Source of the DNA: Rubrobacter sp.
GTDB lineage: Bacteria; Chloroflexota; Chloroflexia; Thermobaculales; Thermobaculaceae
NCBI GenBank assembly: GCA_016781845.1
Contig: JADDPP010000151.1
Coordinates: forward strand, 1 to 50,442
Direction: 5' to 3'
Length of the DNA stretch: 50,442 nucleotides
Of this stretch, positions 6,867 through 40,822 are shown piece by piece. The stretch's first letter is position 1; each line of letters starts with the position of its first letter. The notes under the pieces are model-generated. The model did not search any database, was not told where the DNA came from, and saw only the letters and a program-made list of their open reading frames with translations. The position numbers and the translations under genes were made by a program.

Positions 6867-7586
6867 CTATAATGCGGCGGATTGCAGGTTCTGCAGCGCT
6901 TGGGCGGCGGCTGCCTGCTCGGCCTCTCCCTTGCTCGCCCCTTGACCGGCTCCGAGGCTCGATCCGTTGAGGAGCGCCTCGACGTGGAAAAACTCTTCGG
7001 CAGGCGGCCCCGACAGCACGATATACGTGGGCGCTACCTTGTGCCGTGCCTGAGTGATCTCCTGCAGCCGGCTTTTCGCGTCCTTTTCGCTCCGCCACTC
7101 ACCCTCTGGAAGCACACGCTCCAGCAGACACCGGTCAACGACGGTCTGACAGGCGGCCACCCCTCCATCGAGGTAAGTCGCGCCGAGCACTGCCTCGAAG
7201 GTGTCCGCGAGGATGGAGTCGAGTCTCGGCCCGCCCTCAGCCCTGGCGCCCTTCCCCATCAGAACGGCCTCTCCTAACTCAAGGGTACGCGCGACCTCAG
7301 CCAGCGTTCGCTTGTTGACCAGGTTTGCTCGGGCCCGCGTCAGCTCTCCCTCGCTCGCTCGCGGGTATCGGTTGTACAGACGGTCCGCGACGACGAAGGT
7401 CAGCACGGCGTCACCAAGGAACTCCAATCGCTCGTTAGTAGCCCGCTGACGCGCCGGGTCGCGCCCGCTCGTGCCCGCGCTGGAAGCTTTCCTTTGCTCG
7501 TTGGCGTAGGAGCGGTGTACGAGCGCGCTCCGCAGCAGGTCTGGCTCGTTGAACCGATAGCCCAGGCCATCCTGCAACCGCTGCAA
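6867..7586 (-). CDS. rnc: Ribonuclease III
   Basis: 'NERLEFLGDAVLTFVVADRLY' RNase III signature plus C-terminal dsRBD. Confidence 0.97.
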   Translation of the reverse strand: MQRLQDGLGYRFNEPDLLRSALVHRSYANEQRKASSAGTSGRDPARQRATNERLEFLGDAVLTFVVADRLYNRYPRASEGELTRARANLVNKRTLAEVARTLELGEAVLMGKGARAEGGPRLDSILADTFEAVLGATYLDGGVAACQTVVDRCLLERVLPEGEWRSEKDAKSRLQEITQARHKVAPTYIVLSGPPAEEFFHVEALLNGSSLGAGQGASKGEAEQAAAAQALQNLQSAAL

Positions 7587-7635
7587 CAGGGCGGCGCGGC
7601 GATTGCCCTCGCTTACTATTGCGGTGCTACCTTAC

Positions 7636-8181
7636 TTACTCGCTCTCGCGCTTGGGGTCGTCCAGGTCCAGGTTGTTCACGAACTCGCGGAAGACCATTA
7701 GCCTCTCCGTCTCCACCGGGTCCAACTGCTGACTGGGTGAAGGGGTCTCCTCAGGTTCCGTCGTCTCGGCGGGAGACTCCAACTGCATCGTGAATCCCGC
7801 CTGGTCAATGACGTGGTCCTCGACGTAGATTGGTGAGTTAGTGCGTACCGCTAGCGCTATAGCGTCGCTGGATCGGGAGTCTATCTGAATGCGCCGCCCG
7901 TTCAAGTCTATCTCGATAAGCGCGTGGAAGATGCTGTCCTTGAGGTCATTCACCACCACACGACTTACAGTGCCGCCCATCTCGTAGATAACAGAGCGCA
8001 GGAGGTCGTGTGTGAGGGGGCGGGGCACATCGGCGCCTTGCAGTACCAGGGCTATGGAGTTCGCTACCTCGTTCGTTATCCAGATCGGCACCACCCGCGG
8101 GCCATCCACCTCTTTTAGCACAACCACATGGTTGTCGTTGATGACGTTTACTCGTATCGCCTCGATCACAGCCTCTACCAT
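7636..8181 (-). CDS. Bifunctional nuclease family protein (DUF151)
   Basis: 'VPIWITNEVANSIALVLQG', 'IDSRSSDAIALAVRTNSPIYV'; start set to MVEAVIEA (ORF track extends to 8244). Confidence 0.9.
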   Translation of the reverse strand: MVEAVIEAIRVNVINDNHVVVLKEVDGPRVVPIWITNEVANSIALVLQGADVPRPLTHDLLRSVIYEMGGTVSRVVVNDLKDSIFHALIEIDLNGRRIQIDSRSSDAIALAVRTNSPIYVEDHVIDQAGFTMQLESPAETTEPEETPSPSQQLDPVETERLMVFREFVNNLDLDDPKRESE

Positions 8182-8254
8182 TGCGCTACTCCTCTCGAGC
8201 ATCGTGCCACACGCTATCCCCCTTTTAGGGTGAACAAAGCACACCGTATGCCAT

Positions 8255-33944: not shown

Positions 33945-34193
33945 AGCTGGACTCCCTGTCTATATCGAGTTAGGTTCCGAGCGCTCGTCTCGCGTTCGTA
34001 TTCCTGGACGCGGCACGATAGCAATTGTACGCCTGAGGATTATACAGCAGGACCGGTGGCAGCAACGAGCACGCCACCGTGGCGGCTTGCGGAAGCTCGC
34101 GGGAGCAGTACTGCCGCCGCCCTCGCCCGCTCATCCCTGGTCCCCTGTCCGGTATAGTTGCGCCGTGAAGAGACGAGTCAGGGGGGTACGAAA

Positions 34194-34973
34194 GTGTTCG
34201 TGGGAGAGCTGGAGACGGCGGTGGCAGCGGCGAGGGCGGCGGGCGAGGTGCTGCACCGCTATCTGAGCCAGGGCATTACGGTGCGCTATAAGGGGCCTGT
34301 GGACCTCGTCACGCAAGCGGACGTGGAAGCGGAGCGAGTGATTACGGGGATGTTGCGCGAGGCGTATCCCACTTATGGCTTCCTGGCTGAGGAAGGAGGT
34401 CGGTCTGAGGGGGAGAGCGACGCGCGCTGGATAATTGATCCCCTCGACGGTACAACGAATTACGCGCACGGCTTCCCAGCGTTCGCGGTCTCAATCGCGC
34501 TACAGCGTGCAGGAGAGGTGGTCGCGGGTGTCGTGTACGACCCGGTGCGCGATGAGTTGTTCGCGGCGCAACGAGGACAGGGCGCGACGCTCAATGGACA
34601 GCCGCTGCGGGTATCGGAGACGCAGGAGCTGGGCCGGGCGCTGCTTGCTACCGGATTCCCCTACGACCTGGGGAAGCTGCCTGCGGCGCTCGAGTTGTTC
34701 GGCCAATTCGTCGCGGCCACCCAGGGAGTGCGCCGGGCAGGGTCGGCGGCTCTGGATGTCTGCTACGTGGCGGCGGGGCGGCTCGACGGCTACTACGAGC
34801 GCGGCATCTGGGCGTGGGACATCGCGGCTGGAAGCCTCATCCTCACCGAGGCCGGTGGGACGGTCAGCGACTTCCGCGGCGGCCCGCTCGATATCGAGGG
34901 CAGGGAGATGGTGGCGACGAACGGCCCGCTGCATCCCCAGGTGGTGGAGATTACGGGCGGCGCAAGCGCCTGA
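34194..34973 (+). CDS. Inositol monophosphatase family protein
   Basis: 'YGFLAEEGG', 'WIIDPLDGTTNYAHGFPAFAVSIAL', 'IWAWDIAAGSLILTEAGG'; GTG start 34194. Confidence 0.95.
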   Translation: MFVGELETAVAAARAAGEVLHRYLSQGITVRYKGPVDLVTQADVEAERVITGMLREAYPTYGFLAEEGGRSEGESDARWIIDPLDGTTNYAHGFPAFAVSIALQRAGEVVAGVVYDPVRDELFAAQRGQGATLNGQPLRVSETQELGRALLATGFPYDLGKLPAALELFGQFVAATQGVRRAGSAALDVCYVAAGRLDGYYERGIWAWDIAAGSLILTEAGGTVSDFRGGPLDIEGREMVATNGPLHPQVVEITGGASA

Positions 34974-36539: not shown

Positions 36540-36569
36540 TTGACAGTAGCTTCCTCGTGGTGCTATATT
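36540..36569 (+). promoter_or_regulatory. Sigma70-like promoter upstream of the split TPP riboswitch
   Basis: TTGACA (36540-36545), 18-nt spacer, TATATT (36564-36569). Confidence 0.7.
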
Positions 36570-36582
36570 CCGTCTGACAACA

Positions 36583-36614
36583 TATACGTTTCGCGGGAGC
36601 TTGGGGCAGCCGGG
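36583..36614 (+). ncRNA. 5' half of TPP riboswitch (P1/P2/P3 5' strands) ending in left TSD copy GCCGGG
   Basis: ACGTTTCGCGGGAGCTTGGGGCAGCCGGG; GCGG pairs with CCGT 36905-36908 (P2); GCTTGG pairs with CCGGGC 36871-36876 (P3). Confidence 0.75.
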
Positions 36615-36869
36615 CCCACATTCCGCAGTTAAAAATGAGCAGTTTCACCTATTGTTTTGACGCTCAGGGGCAACGTGGCTTAGCTCTTTGTCGCACTTGC
36701 GAAAGAGATGAAGGGCAGTTGCGGGACTGTGGAAACCGCAAAGCCTTTCAGCCTCGTTGCTTACTTCCCTGTGCTCGCGCTACTGCTACTTTGACTTGAC
36801 ACGTGTTGCTTATACGCAACGAAGACCAAGGTATTATCGAAACTTGCCAATTCTACTGCGGAATGTGGG
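36615..36869. mobile_element. 255-bp MITE-like element inserted in the TPP riboswitch P3 loop
   Basis: Perfect 15-bp TIRs CCCACATTCCGCAGT...ACTGCGGAATGTGGG, imperfect extension to ~30 nt; flanked by GCCGGG direct repeats (36609-36614, 36870-36875); no credible ORF inside. Confidence 0.8.
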
Positions 36870-36946
36870 GCCGGGCTGAGAGGGCGGACATACTCCTCCG
36901 CCGACCGTTGGAACCTGATCCGGGTAATACCGGCGCAGGGATGTAC
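36870..36946 (+). ncRNA. 3' half of TPP riboswitch (CUGAGA, P3a, P2 3', CCUGAUC, P4/P5, P1 3')
   Basis: GCCGGGCTGAGAGGGCGG...CCGCCGACCGTTGGAACCTGATCCGGGTAATACCGGCGCAGGGATGT matches the THI-element consensus. Confidence 0.93.
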
Positions 36947-36965
36947 ACAGCCTTCGTGCATGCCA

Positions 36966-36996
36966 CGCCGCCGGTGCCTCCCGGTCGGCGTTTTTT
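36966..36996 (+). terminator. Riboswitch expression-platform terminator
   Basis: CGCCGCCGG-tgcctc-CCGGtCGGCG followed by TTTTTT. Confidence 0.85.
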
Positions 36997-37021
36997 CTTG
37001 CTGCGTGGAGGTGCGACGAGG

Positions 37022-37843
37022 GTGGCGAGCGTTCGAGGCGTGGCGCGAGCTTCGCAGACTCCGCCGACTGAGGGCGGGGTGTCCGTACGCGGCCTGTCCA
37101 AGACGTACGCGCTCAGTGGGCAACCCCTGCCCGTGCTCCAGGAAATCACGTTCGACGTGCAGCCAGGGGAGTTCGTATCGTTCGTAGGGCCGAGTGGCTC
37201 AGGCAAGAGCACGTTGCTGAATATACTCGCGGGGCTAGAGGAACCGGACAGGGGCGTTGTGACGGCTGGAGGGTCGGCGCGGCGGCTGGGGGGCGTGGCG
37301 TACATGCCCCAGCGGGATGTGCTCCTGCCGTGGCGCTCGGCGCTTGAGAACGCGATCCTCGGACTGGAGGTGAAGGGGGTTCCGAGGCACGAGTCCCGGC
37401 AGTGGGCTCGGGAGTTGTTTGCGGTGGCGGGCCTTGGAGGGTTTGAGGACTCACTGCCGTCCGTGCTCTCAGGCGGGATGAGGCAGCGAGTCGCGTTCCT
37501 GCGCACCGTGCTTACCCCCGGTTCCGTTATGCTGCTTGACGAGCCGTTCGGCGCTCTCGACGCGCTCACCCGCTCCGAGATGCACGAGTGGCTTCTCGGG
37601 CTGTGGGAGCACGGCGACGTTATGTATAACGTCTCCACCACGGTCGTGCTTGTGACTCACGACGTAGAGGAGGCGCTGCTGCTCTCGGACAGGGTCTACG
37701 TGCTCTCCCCCCGCCCTGGCCGCATCAGGCTCGTTCACGAAGTATCGCTGCCCCGTCCGCGCACGCCTGCACTCACGACCACCGAGGAGTTTGTGCGCTC
37801 GAAGGCTGCGCTCCTCGCCGCAGTCCGGGGGGAGGGAGCGTAG
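37022..37843 (+). CDS. ABC transporter ATP-binding protein, ThiZ-like (thiamine precursor uptake)
   Basis: Walker A 'GPSGSGKST', signature 'LSGGMRQRV', Walker B 'VMLLDEPFG', H-loop 'VTHD'; under TPP riboswitch; GTG start 37022 after the terminator. Confidence 0.9.
   Translation: MASVRGVARASQTPPTEGGVSVRGLSKTYALSGQPLPVLQEITFDVQPGEFVSFVGPSGSGKSTLLNILAGLEEPDRGVVTAGGSARRLGGVAYMPQRDVLLPWRSALENAILGLEVKGVPRHESRQWARELFAVAGLGGFEDSLPSVLSGGMRQRVAFLRTVLTPGSVMLLDEPFGALDALTRSEMHEWLLGLWEHGDVMYNVSTTVVLVTHDVEEALLLSDRVYVLSPRPGRIRLVHEVSLPRPRTPALTTTEEFVRSKAALLAAVRGEGA
37616..37633. repeat. In-frame palindrome GACGTTAT-GT-ATAACGTC inside the ABC ATPase gene
   Basis: 8-bp arms around 2-nt centre; translates within 'HGDVMYNVSTT'; resembles the GAGACGTTGC palindrome family. 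Confidence 0.65.
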
Positions 37844-38698
37844 GTGAGGGTGCAGCATGTGCCGTCCGTGCTGCTGGCCACCGTGCCGGCTGGGCTGCTC
37901 CTCTGTGCGTGGGAGGCGTACGTCCGCGTTGCCGGAGTTGACCGCGTCTTCCTGCCCGCCCCGACGCAGGTACTGAAAGTCACGTGGGACTCCGCTGGGT
38001 TGCTCGCCACCCACGCTCGCCTGACGCTCCTGGAGGCGACGCTTGGCCTGTTGCTCGCGTTCGTCGCCGGCTGCGCGCTCGGGGCGATGGTCGGACTCTC
38101 GCCCCTGCTGCGCCGGAGTGTGTATCCCCTCCTCGTGGTGTCACAGACGATCCCGATGATCGCGCTCGCGCCCCTGCTGGTGCTCTGGTTCGGGTTTGGC
38201 ATCCTGCCGAAGCTGCTCGTCGTCGCGCTCGTGTGCTTCTTCCCCCTCGCAGTGTCGATGGCGGACGGCCTGGCGAGCGCGGAGCCGGACGCGCTACGCC
38301 TGCTTCGGAGCATGGGAGCGAGCCCAACTCAGCTTTTCTTCAAAGTGCGCCTGCCCGGGGCGCTACCGTACCTGTTCTCGGGCGCGAAGATCGCCGTGAC
38401 GTACGCGGTTATCGGCGCTGTATTCGGTGAGTGGGTGGGAGCGTACGAGGGGCTGGGGATACTCATGCAGACAGCGAAGAACTCGTACCGCACCGACATA
38501 GTGTTCGCGGCTATCCTCGTCACGTCGCTCCTGAGCGTGGGGCTGTTCGGCCTGGTCTCCATACTCGAGCGCGTGATGCTGCCGTGGCACGTGCGCGGCT
38601 CGGGTACAGCGATGGACCAATCACCACGCATCCAGCCCATCATTGGCGGTCGCCGCAGAGCACCCGGGGACCGCCGAGAGATAGTGGAGAACGTGTAG
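37844..38698 (+). CDS. ABC transporter permease, ThiX-like
   Basis: 'LGLLLAFVAGCALGAMVGLSPLLRRSVYPLLVVSQTIPMIALAPLLVLWFGFGILPKLLVVALVCFFPL' BPD permease. Confidence 0.92.
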   Translation: MRVQHVPSVLLATVPAGLLLCAWEAYVRVAGVDRVFLPAPTQVLKVTWDSAGLLATHARLTLLEATLGLLLAFVAGCALGAMVGLSPLLRRSVYPLLVVSQTIPMIALAPLLVLWFGFGILPKLLVVALVCFFPLAVSMADGLASAEPDALRLLRSMGASPTQLFFKVRLPGALPYLFSGAKIAVTYAVIGAVFGEWVGAYEGLGILMQTAKNSYRTDIVFAAILVTSLLSVGLFGLVSILERVMLPWHVRGSGTAMDQSPRIQPIIGGRRRAPGDRREIVENV

Positions 38699-40093: not shown

Positions 40094-40156
40094 CCGTGAA
40101 ACAGGGTATACTGCGGCACCCAGACATAGGCGCAAGATTCGGGAGGTAAGGCAGCG

Positions 40157-40822
40157 ATGAAGGTCGAGGACATGGATTTCAGCCTGTACGTCATCACGGA
40201 CACGGACGCATCCGGTGGGCGGCTACACGCGGAGGTGGTGCGGCTCGCCCTTGAGGGTGGCGCAACAGCCATACAGTATCGTGAGAAGCGCGCGTCCGTA
40301 CGTCGGATGCTCGAGGTCGGCGCGCAGCTGCGCGAGCTGGCGGCCCAGCACGGCGCCGCGTTCATAGTGAATGACCGTCCAGACCTAGCTATCGCGCTTG
40401 GAGCCGACGGAGTCCATGTAGGTCCCGAGGACCTGCCACCTGATGTCGTCCGTAAGATAGTTGGACCGGACATGATGGTGAGCGTGAGCGTGGACAACCC
40501 CCAGGACGCTCGCGAGGCCGAGGCACGAGGCGCCGACTATATCGTGGCGCGGCCTGTGTTCCCTACGCGCTGGAAGGCGTCCGGGAGAGCAACTATGGGG
40601 GCTGAGGGACTGGCCGAGATAGTGCGCTCGGTGCGGGTGCCGGTGCTCGCCGACGGCGGCATCAACGCCGAAACGCTGCCGGACATTCTGAGGTCAGGCG
40701 CCGCTGGGCCGGGCGTGACCGCCGCCGTCGTTGGCGCGGAGGACCCTCGCGAGGCGGCCCGGCAGTTTCGCGAGATGGTGGAAGCGTACAAAAGCAGACA
40801 AACCGCTGGGCAAGGAGCGTAG
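40157..40822 (+). CDS. thiE: Thiamine-phosphate synthase
   Basis: 'ATAIQYREKRASVRRML', 'FIVNDRPDLAIALGADGVHVGPEDLP', 'VLADGGIN'. Confidence 0.95.
   Translation: MKVEDMDFSLYVITDTDASGGRLHAEVVRLALEGGATAIQYREKRASVRRMLEVGAQLRELAAQHGAAFIVNDRPDLAIALGADGVHVGPEDLPPDVVRKIVGPDMMVSVSVDNPQDAREAEARGADYIVARPVFPTRWKASGRATMGAEGLAEIVRSVRVPVLADGGINAETLPDILRSGAAGPGVTAAVVGAEDPREAARQFREMVEAYKSRQTAGQGA

Follow-up and report, generated by a model that had tools for sequence, protein, structure and literature searches.

A MITE-like insertion in the P3 arm of a TPP riboswitch probably leaves a Chloroflexota thiZXY-thiE operon insensitive to TPP

TPP (THI-box) riboswitches (RF00059) include a thiXYZ transporter type with a P3a helix and a transcription-terminating platform. 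Fungal and Klebsiella TPP riboswitches carry established P3 extensions, with large extra sequence in that arm (PMC11683625, PMC12632268). A 2024 review of bacterial MITEs terms riboswitch regulation derived from such elements merely 'conceivable' (PMC10969869). The closest precedent found is a BOX element in the pneumococcal trp operon leader, where it separates two T boxes; both T boxes are complete, and regulation seems to survive (PMC3049150). The open-access full-text literature searched gave no case of an aptamer helix with a mobile element in it.

Here we describe a TPP riboswitch, read directly at positions 36590-36996 of the window (the whole 50,442-nt stretch of DNA analysed), which precedes the thiZ-thiX-thiY-thiE operon of a Chloroflexota bacterium. 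The features of the locus are as follows.

34158-34973, plus strand: suhB-like inositol monophosphatase (PF00459), conserved upstream neighbour
36540-36569, plus strand: promoter, TTGACA (36540-36545), 18 nt, TATATT (36564-36569); TG precedes the second hexamer
36590-36608, plus strand: 5' half of the aptamer, with P1 5' strand UUCG, P2 5' strand GCGG (36593-36596), P3 5' strand GCUUGG (36599-36604) and the start of L3
36609-36614, plus strand: left target-site duplication (TSD) GCCGGG, read in the window; the relatives' empty site has one equivalent CCGGG
36615-36869, no strand assigned: 255-bp MITE-like element without coding capacity of its own; identical and partial copies elsewhere in the genome
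36615-36629, plus strand: left TIR, CCCACATTCCGCAGT, read in the window
36855-36869, minus strand: right TIR (inverted), ACTGCGGAATGTGGG, read in the window
36870-36875, plus strand: right TSD GCCGGG, which provides the native P3 3' strand CCGGGC (36871-36876)
36876-36945, plus strand: 3' half of the aptamer (RF00059, 57.9 bits; lineage covariance model, 77.4 bits), with J3-2 UGAGAG (36877-36882), P3a (36883-36902), P2 3' strand (36905-36908), P4/P5 (36914-36939) and a weak P1 3' strand (36942-36945)
36966-36996, plus strand: intrinsic terminator, CGCCGCCGG-TGCCTC-CCGGTCGGCG-T6, which competes with an antiterminator using the P5 3' strand
37022-37843, plus strand: thiZ-like ABC ATPase (PF00005, 4e-27)
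37844-38698, plus strand: thiX-like permease (PF00528, 6e-33); orthologue at 74-76% in L144/L145
38711-39853, plus strand: thiY-like NMT1/THI5 substrate-binding protein (PF09084, 5.8e-73)
40130-40819, plus strand: thiE-like thiamine monophosphate synthase (PF02581, TMP-TENI, 1e-53), last gene of the conserved cluster

A preliminary description of this DNA had set out the promoter, the aptamer halves, the 255-bp element with its TIRs, the GCCGGG repeats and the terminator, and reading of the window placed all of them at these positions. The ThiZ-like gene that it had named downstream is the PF00005 ABC ATPase heading the thiZXY-thiE operon; its start (GTG, with GGAGG at 37007-37011) was assigned by inspection, and its protein is 51-70% identical to ATPases that follow uninterrupted TPP leaders. 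The gene order of the thi cluster is conserved at four further loci (L143, L144, L145 and L147). TTGACA-18-TATATT is the single sigma-70-like match in the stretch (0.2 expected), at a position conserved in the aligned thi leaders of relatives. The promoter and terminator motifs detected in the leader are the native ones only, a motif scan within the 255-bp element having returned no additional promoter and no intrinsic terminator.

The leader resembles the thiXYZ transporter type of RF00059 in its conserved core, P2-P5, P3a, antiterminator and terminator, promoter and gene context, but its P3 strands lie 261 extra nt apart, and native P3 is predicted to form in only a small part of the ensemble. 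The element, in turn, is like bacterial MITEs (PMC10969869) in its size of 255 bp, perfect TIRs, fixed-length TSD, several copies and lack of a transposase, and unlike those described in that it sits within a riboswitch aptamer. As in the pneumococcal trp leader, a small mobile repeat is co-transcribed within a composite regulatory leader; here, in contrast, it splits a helix in one aptamer. The locus shares its large insert in the P3 arm with the fungal and Klebsiella riboswitches, whereas its extra sequence arrived recently by transposition, along with direct repeats that act as competitors for pairing.

RF00059 matches were obtained in five of the seven family genomes, and the relatives' empty aptamers, scored with this model as the comparison for the interrupted one, reached 63-69 bits. 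A check for an empty site in related genomes, proposed in the preliminary description, found uninterrupted orthologous thiZ leaders in four relatives, G001 (CADDYR010000008), G003 (Thermobaculum sp. LB3_1, JADDPA010000126), G004 (Chloroflexia YX1bin4, JAUJMR010000008) and G006, each with an ordinary 5-nt L3 and without the element. Among named organisms, Thermobaculum sp. LB3_1 and Chloroflexia MAGs are the closest relatives. The thiX orthologue (74-76% identity) follows the empty sites of G003 and G004. The order suhB-TPP riboswitch-thiZ is common to the window, G003, G004 and G006, indicating that the left flank of the window's riboswitch belongs to the thiZ operon. For the aptamer left once the element is removed, the label 'actinobacterial-style' of the preliminary description should be Chloroflexota instead.

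RF00059 gave a full-length placement at 36848-36958, with 57.9 bits against a gathering threshold of 54.3 and a degenerate P3. This placement takes P2 (GCGG) from the right TIR and deletes most of P3. Taken at face value, it would favour a complete aptamer lying wholly 3' of the element's centre with the TIR GCGG as its P2, and a cmsearch aptamer inside 36850-36950 with a different P2/P3 was what the preliminary description had named as refuting a split. The match exists formally, but it lacks a real P3, and fold computation assigned a cost of 19.4 kcal/mol to a P2 drawn from the TIR, because this pairing breaks the TIR stem. RF00059 is also described as ending prematurely and misplacing its ends when the P3 arm is long (PMC11683625). 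A lineage covariance model, R1, was then built from the aptamers of six relatives. It scored 110-133 bits on relatives whose sequences went into the model or match such sequences exactly; on the window, it matched the 3' half with 77.4 bits and non-standard P1 and P3 pairs, and placed the real 5' half in a hit of its own (36579-36615, 21.8 bits, E 2.7e-7). A 3'-only aptamer is scarcely credible: the aptamer is split, not relocated, and the full-length RF00059 placement is a scoring artefact.

Columns that are invariant in the alignment of relatives' leaders are present in the 5' half, and the 3' half keeps all lineage-invariant positions. The core nucleotides J3-2 CUGAGA, ACCGUUGGAACCUGAU and GGGUAAUACCGGCGCAGGGA are identical to all lineage-invariant columns, while a contiguous P3 helix, a defining feature of the family that supports the pyrimidine pocket, is absent, its strands being 261 nt apart. 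By sequence and context, the RNA is an interrupted TPP riboswitch and not an intact member of the family. P1 is weak in the window, where 36590-36593 and 36942-36945 form U-A, U-U, C-G and G-U; most relatives have UUCG/CGAR.

The element interrupts L3 and the 3' strand of P3 (36615-36869), in agreement with the earlier placing of the break in L3 and distal P3, a part known to tolerate length variation. It is 255 bp long, its TIRs match perfectly (15/15), and the 6-bp GCCGGG flanks it on both sides. No gene was found on these 255 bp, and the element therefore has no transposase of its own. The window's genome (G000) is a 3.58-Mb draft in 502 contigs, and contains a second copy at C193:18909-19163 that is identical at 255/255 positions, has its own duplication ACCGGG and is positioned at the end of an IS-like region. 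A partial copy (79% identical) stands at the start of contig C459, the TIR has many further occurrences, mostly at contig ends, and a related 268-bp element with a closely similar TIR is present in two identical full copies. TSDs of 6 bp, reconstructed from flanks, accompany all six intact or paired insertions of the TIR family (GCCGGG, ACCGGG, AGCGGG, TAGTGT, TGATGT and CTCGAG), one of them in another genus of the family (G005). The identical second copy and the uniform TSD length argue against chance and support the MITE-like insertion with a TSD that the preliminary description had proposed, and the complete identity of the two copies points to a recent event. Judged by all the features that sequence can test (short length, TIRs, fixed-length TSD, multiple copies and an empty site), the element is mobile and is a MITE.

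A chimeric join at a repeat during assembly could also have put the element into the riboswitch. The assembly is a draft of 502 contigs, the element occurs more than once, and contigs C279 and C100 break at the tenA paralogue, which the 3' half of the riboswitch matches almost exactly. However, each of the identical copies has its own matched TSD (GCCGGG/GCCGGG and ACCGGG/ACCGGG), and since a crossed join would mismatch them, this speaks against a chimera. The left flank has suhB, as at the thiZ loci of G003, G004 and G006, and the right flank has thiZ. We regard an assembly artefact as highly improbable.

No autonomous element was found assembled in searches with NF033559 in the window's own genome, with PF14104 in the family and with a class-wide TIR pattern; it was probably lost at the many TIR-bearing contig ends. 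In G002, element ends with the same TIR lead into an ORF start, METGVSYSTERLDHLGIV (L060 and L061, last 127 bases, minus strand; contigs C185 and C350). These 25 residues matched no Pfam or NCBIfam model; they may resemble IS1634-type (DUF4277) transposases, and the ORF is a candidate for the transposase of the autonomous partner. The MITE-end 22-mer had no match in the genome-collection scan, and the element none in plasmids. A preference of the MITE for hairpins was considered and is not claimed, because the duplication falls in the predicted stem of a clear hairpin at only two of the six empty sites and the fold z-scores were mixed.

The leader was folded with and without the element using nearest-neighbour energies, which include neither tertiary contacts nor kinetics. 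For the RNA lacking the element, the predicted cost is 0.5 kcal/mol for the native aptamer pairs and 0.0 for native P3. In the interrupted RNA, the TIRs pair as a 15-bp stem, as proposed previously, and enforcing native P3 costs a predicted 9.1 kcal/mol. Over other temperatures, dangle models and an additional parameter set (three alternative loads of energy parameters, which changed nothing in the comparison of insert variants and agreed on a single altered value here, and so count as one set), the cost of P2 and P3 together was 6.3-12.9 kcal/mol. Deleting the left GCCGGG in silico lowered the cost of native P3 to 1.75 kcal/mol and scrambling it to 0.5 kcal/mol. A bare TIR hairpin with the duplication gave the same 9.1 kcal/mol as the full insert, so the interior of the element is irrelevant in these calculations. 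Mononucleotide-shuffled elements with the TSD cost 4-12 kcal/mol, which suggests that a random insert with a TSD would also be damaging and that the TIR stem itself is not the harm. Native P3 is predicted to be costly because the self-complementary CCGG of the left GCCGGG, overlooked in the preliminary description, pairs with the CCGG of the right copy. This pairing occupies the 3' strand of P3, and the GAG of J3-2 (GAGAG) is predicted to pair with CUU.

These calculations bear on the proposal that the locus is a working, transposon-extended riboswitch, in which P3 is prolonged by the stacked TIR stem as an expansion segment, TPP is still bound and transcription is still terminated. P3 is a length-tolerant arm, averaging ~150 nt and reaching 172 nt in fungal TPP riboswitches (PMC11683625) and forming extended stems in those of Klebsiella (PMC12632268), and long insertions are generally tolerated by riboswitches at particular sites (PMC2258182). 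The core has kept all of its nucleotides, and the element without its left TSD would cost native P3 just 1.75 kcal/mol. Intact conserved positions are likewise expected if function is preserved; the insertion is too young for them to be informative on function. With the actual TSD, however, CCGG-CCGG pairing raises the cost of native P3 to a predicted 6-13 kcal/mol. For a cost of 9 kcal/mol and assumed affinities of 1-50 nM, 0.1-4% of the aptamer is computed to be occupied at 100 uM TPP. For 6 kcal/mol, the computed occupancy is 11-86%; the upper value, for a 1 nM aptamer, counts against the misfolding reading. Continued TPP sensing, as the preliminary description had suggested, is thus not the likeliest outcome: on the modelling, a working extended switch is possible yet rather unlikely, and less likely than a disabled leader that is ON by default.

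In the ligand-free leader, whether empty or interrupted, the predicted fold has the P5 3' strand paired with the terminator's 5' arm as an antiterminator, and terminator formation costs +3.3 kcal/mol in the empty and +3.6 kcal/mol in the observed RNA. A similar antiterminator was found for G003 and G004, although it is not the minimum-energy fold in every relative's leader. A TPP-blind switch of this design should therefore be ON. The opposite effect, silencing of the operon, would follow if a 420-nt structured leader halted the polymerase (through Rho or pausing) or were cleaved, lowering thiZXY-thiE expression. Long untranslated leaders can be Rho targets, and the element RNA is predicted to be very stable (about -178 kcal/mol for the whole leader). 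The element, however, has no intrinsic terminator motif, and the downstream genes are intact open frames, weak evidence given how recent the insertion is. We consider silencing improbable.

The explanation we favour, and think probable, is that a recent MITE insertion has left the operon TPP-insensitive and constitutively ON, the duplication misfolding the aptamer. The insertion, its TSD, the empty site, the intact core and synteny are all evident from the comparisons above. The sequence shows a recent landing of the 255-bp MITE in P3/L3 of the thiZXY-thiE riboswitch; this non-autonomous element would have been mobilised in trans by a transposase whose target duplications are 6 bp long. Transcription from the native promoter would now pass through the element, in line with the motif scan. 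In the predicted RNA, the TIRs form the 15-bp stem and the GCCGGG copies pair via their palindromic CCGG; with the P3 3' strand taken and J3-2 mispaired, the TPP pocket would seldom form. P4/P5 would then lack stabilisation by TPP, and the P5 3' strand is predicted to pair with the terminator 5' arm as an antiterminator. We infer that thiZXY-thiE is probably expressed constitutively, whereas the genome's other TPP riboswitch, at tenA-thiE, is uninterrupted and presumably remains responsive to TPP. The insertion is very recent and concerns one locus in one draft genome, and nothing in these comparisons points to co-option or to retention by selection.

The locus is not a new class of regulator and is best seen as a clean natural experiment. 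Mobile elements are a plausible source of the variable arms of riboswitches, and this locus offers a natural before/after pair: the operon and aptamer are the same, the junctions are exact, relatives have the empty site and the genome has a sister riboswitch. It makes two questions testable: can P3 take in an element with hairpin ends while the aptamer survives, and is the outcome set by the target duplication and not by the element? If the duplication decides, insertion into a palindromic GC-rich stem strand would be harmful, as the duplication becomes a competing partner. If the paired TIRs extend P3 and TPP binding survives, the riboswitch would have gained 261 nt in one transposition, which would be a direct observation of how long variable riboswitch arms can arise.

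The sister riboswitch (tenA-thiE) appears to be divided by assembly between contigs C279 and C100; 57 nt on C279 cross P3 uninterrupted, with no element as far as the contig runs. The two TPP leaders of this genome share long identical stretches. In G006:C1, likewise, the tenA-thiE and thiZXY leaders are identical from promoter through the terminator T run (L142 ~8000-8250, L143 ~7560-7830). Such stretches suggest that the two riboswitches arose by duplication, or were homogenised by gene conversion, in the recent past.

At the second MITE copy (L002 1-1500, G000:C193), the element lies at the end of an apparent decayed transposase gene, inside a TTTTCATC...GATGAAAA hairpin. Thirteen contig ends of the same genome (C8, C21, C30, C117, C131, C134, C196, C201, C202, C299, C346, C459 and C469) have the TIR CCCACATTCCGCA within ~125 bases, in one case with a mismatch, so this transposon family seems to be among the main reasons why the draft is fragmented. 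C201 and C202 appear to flank a single insertion, with the duplication TGATGT/ACATCA.
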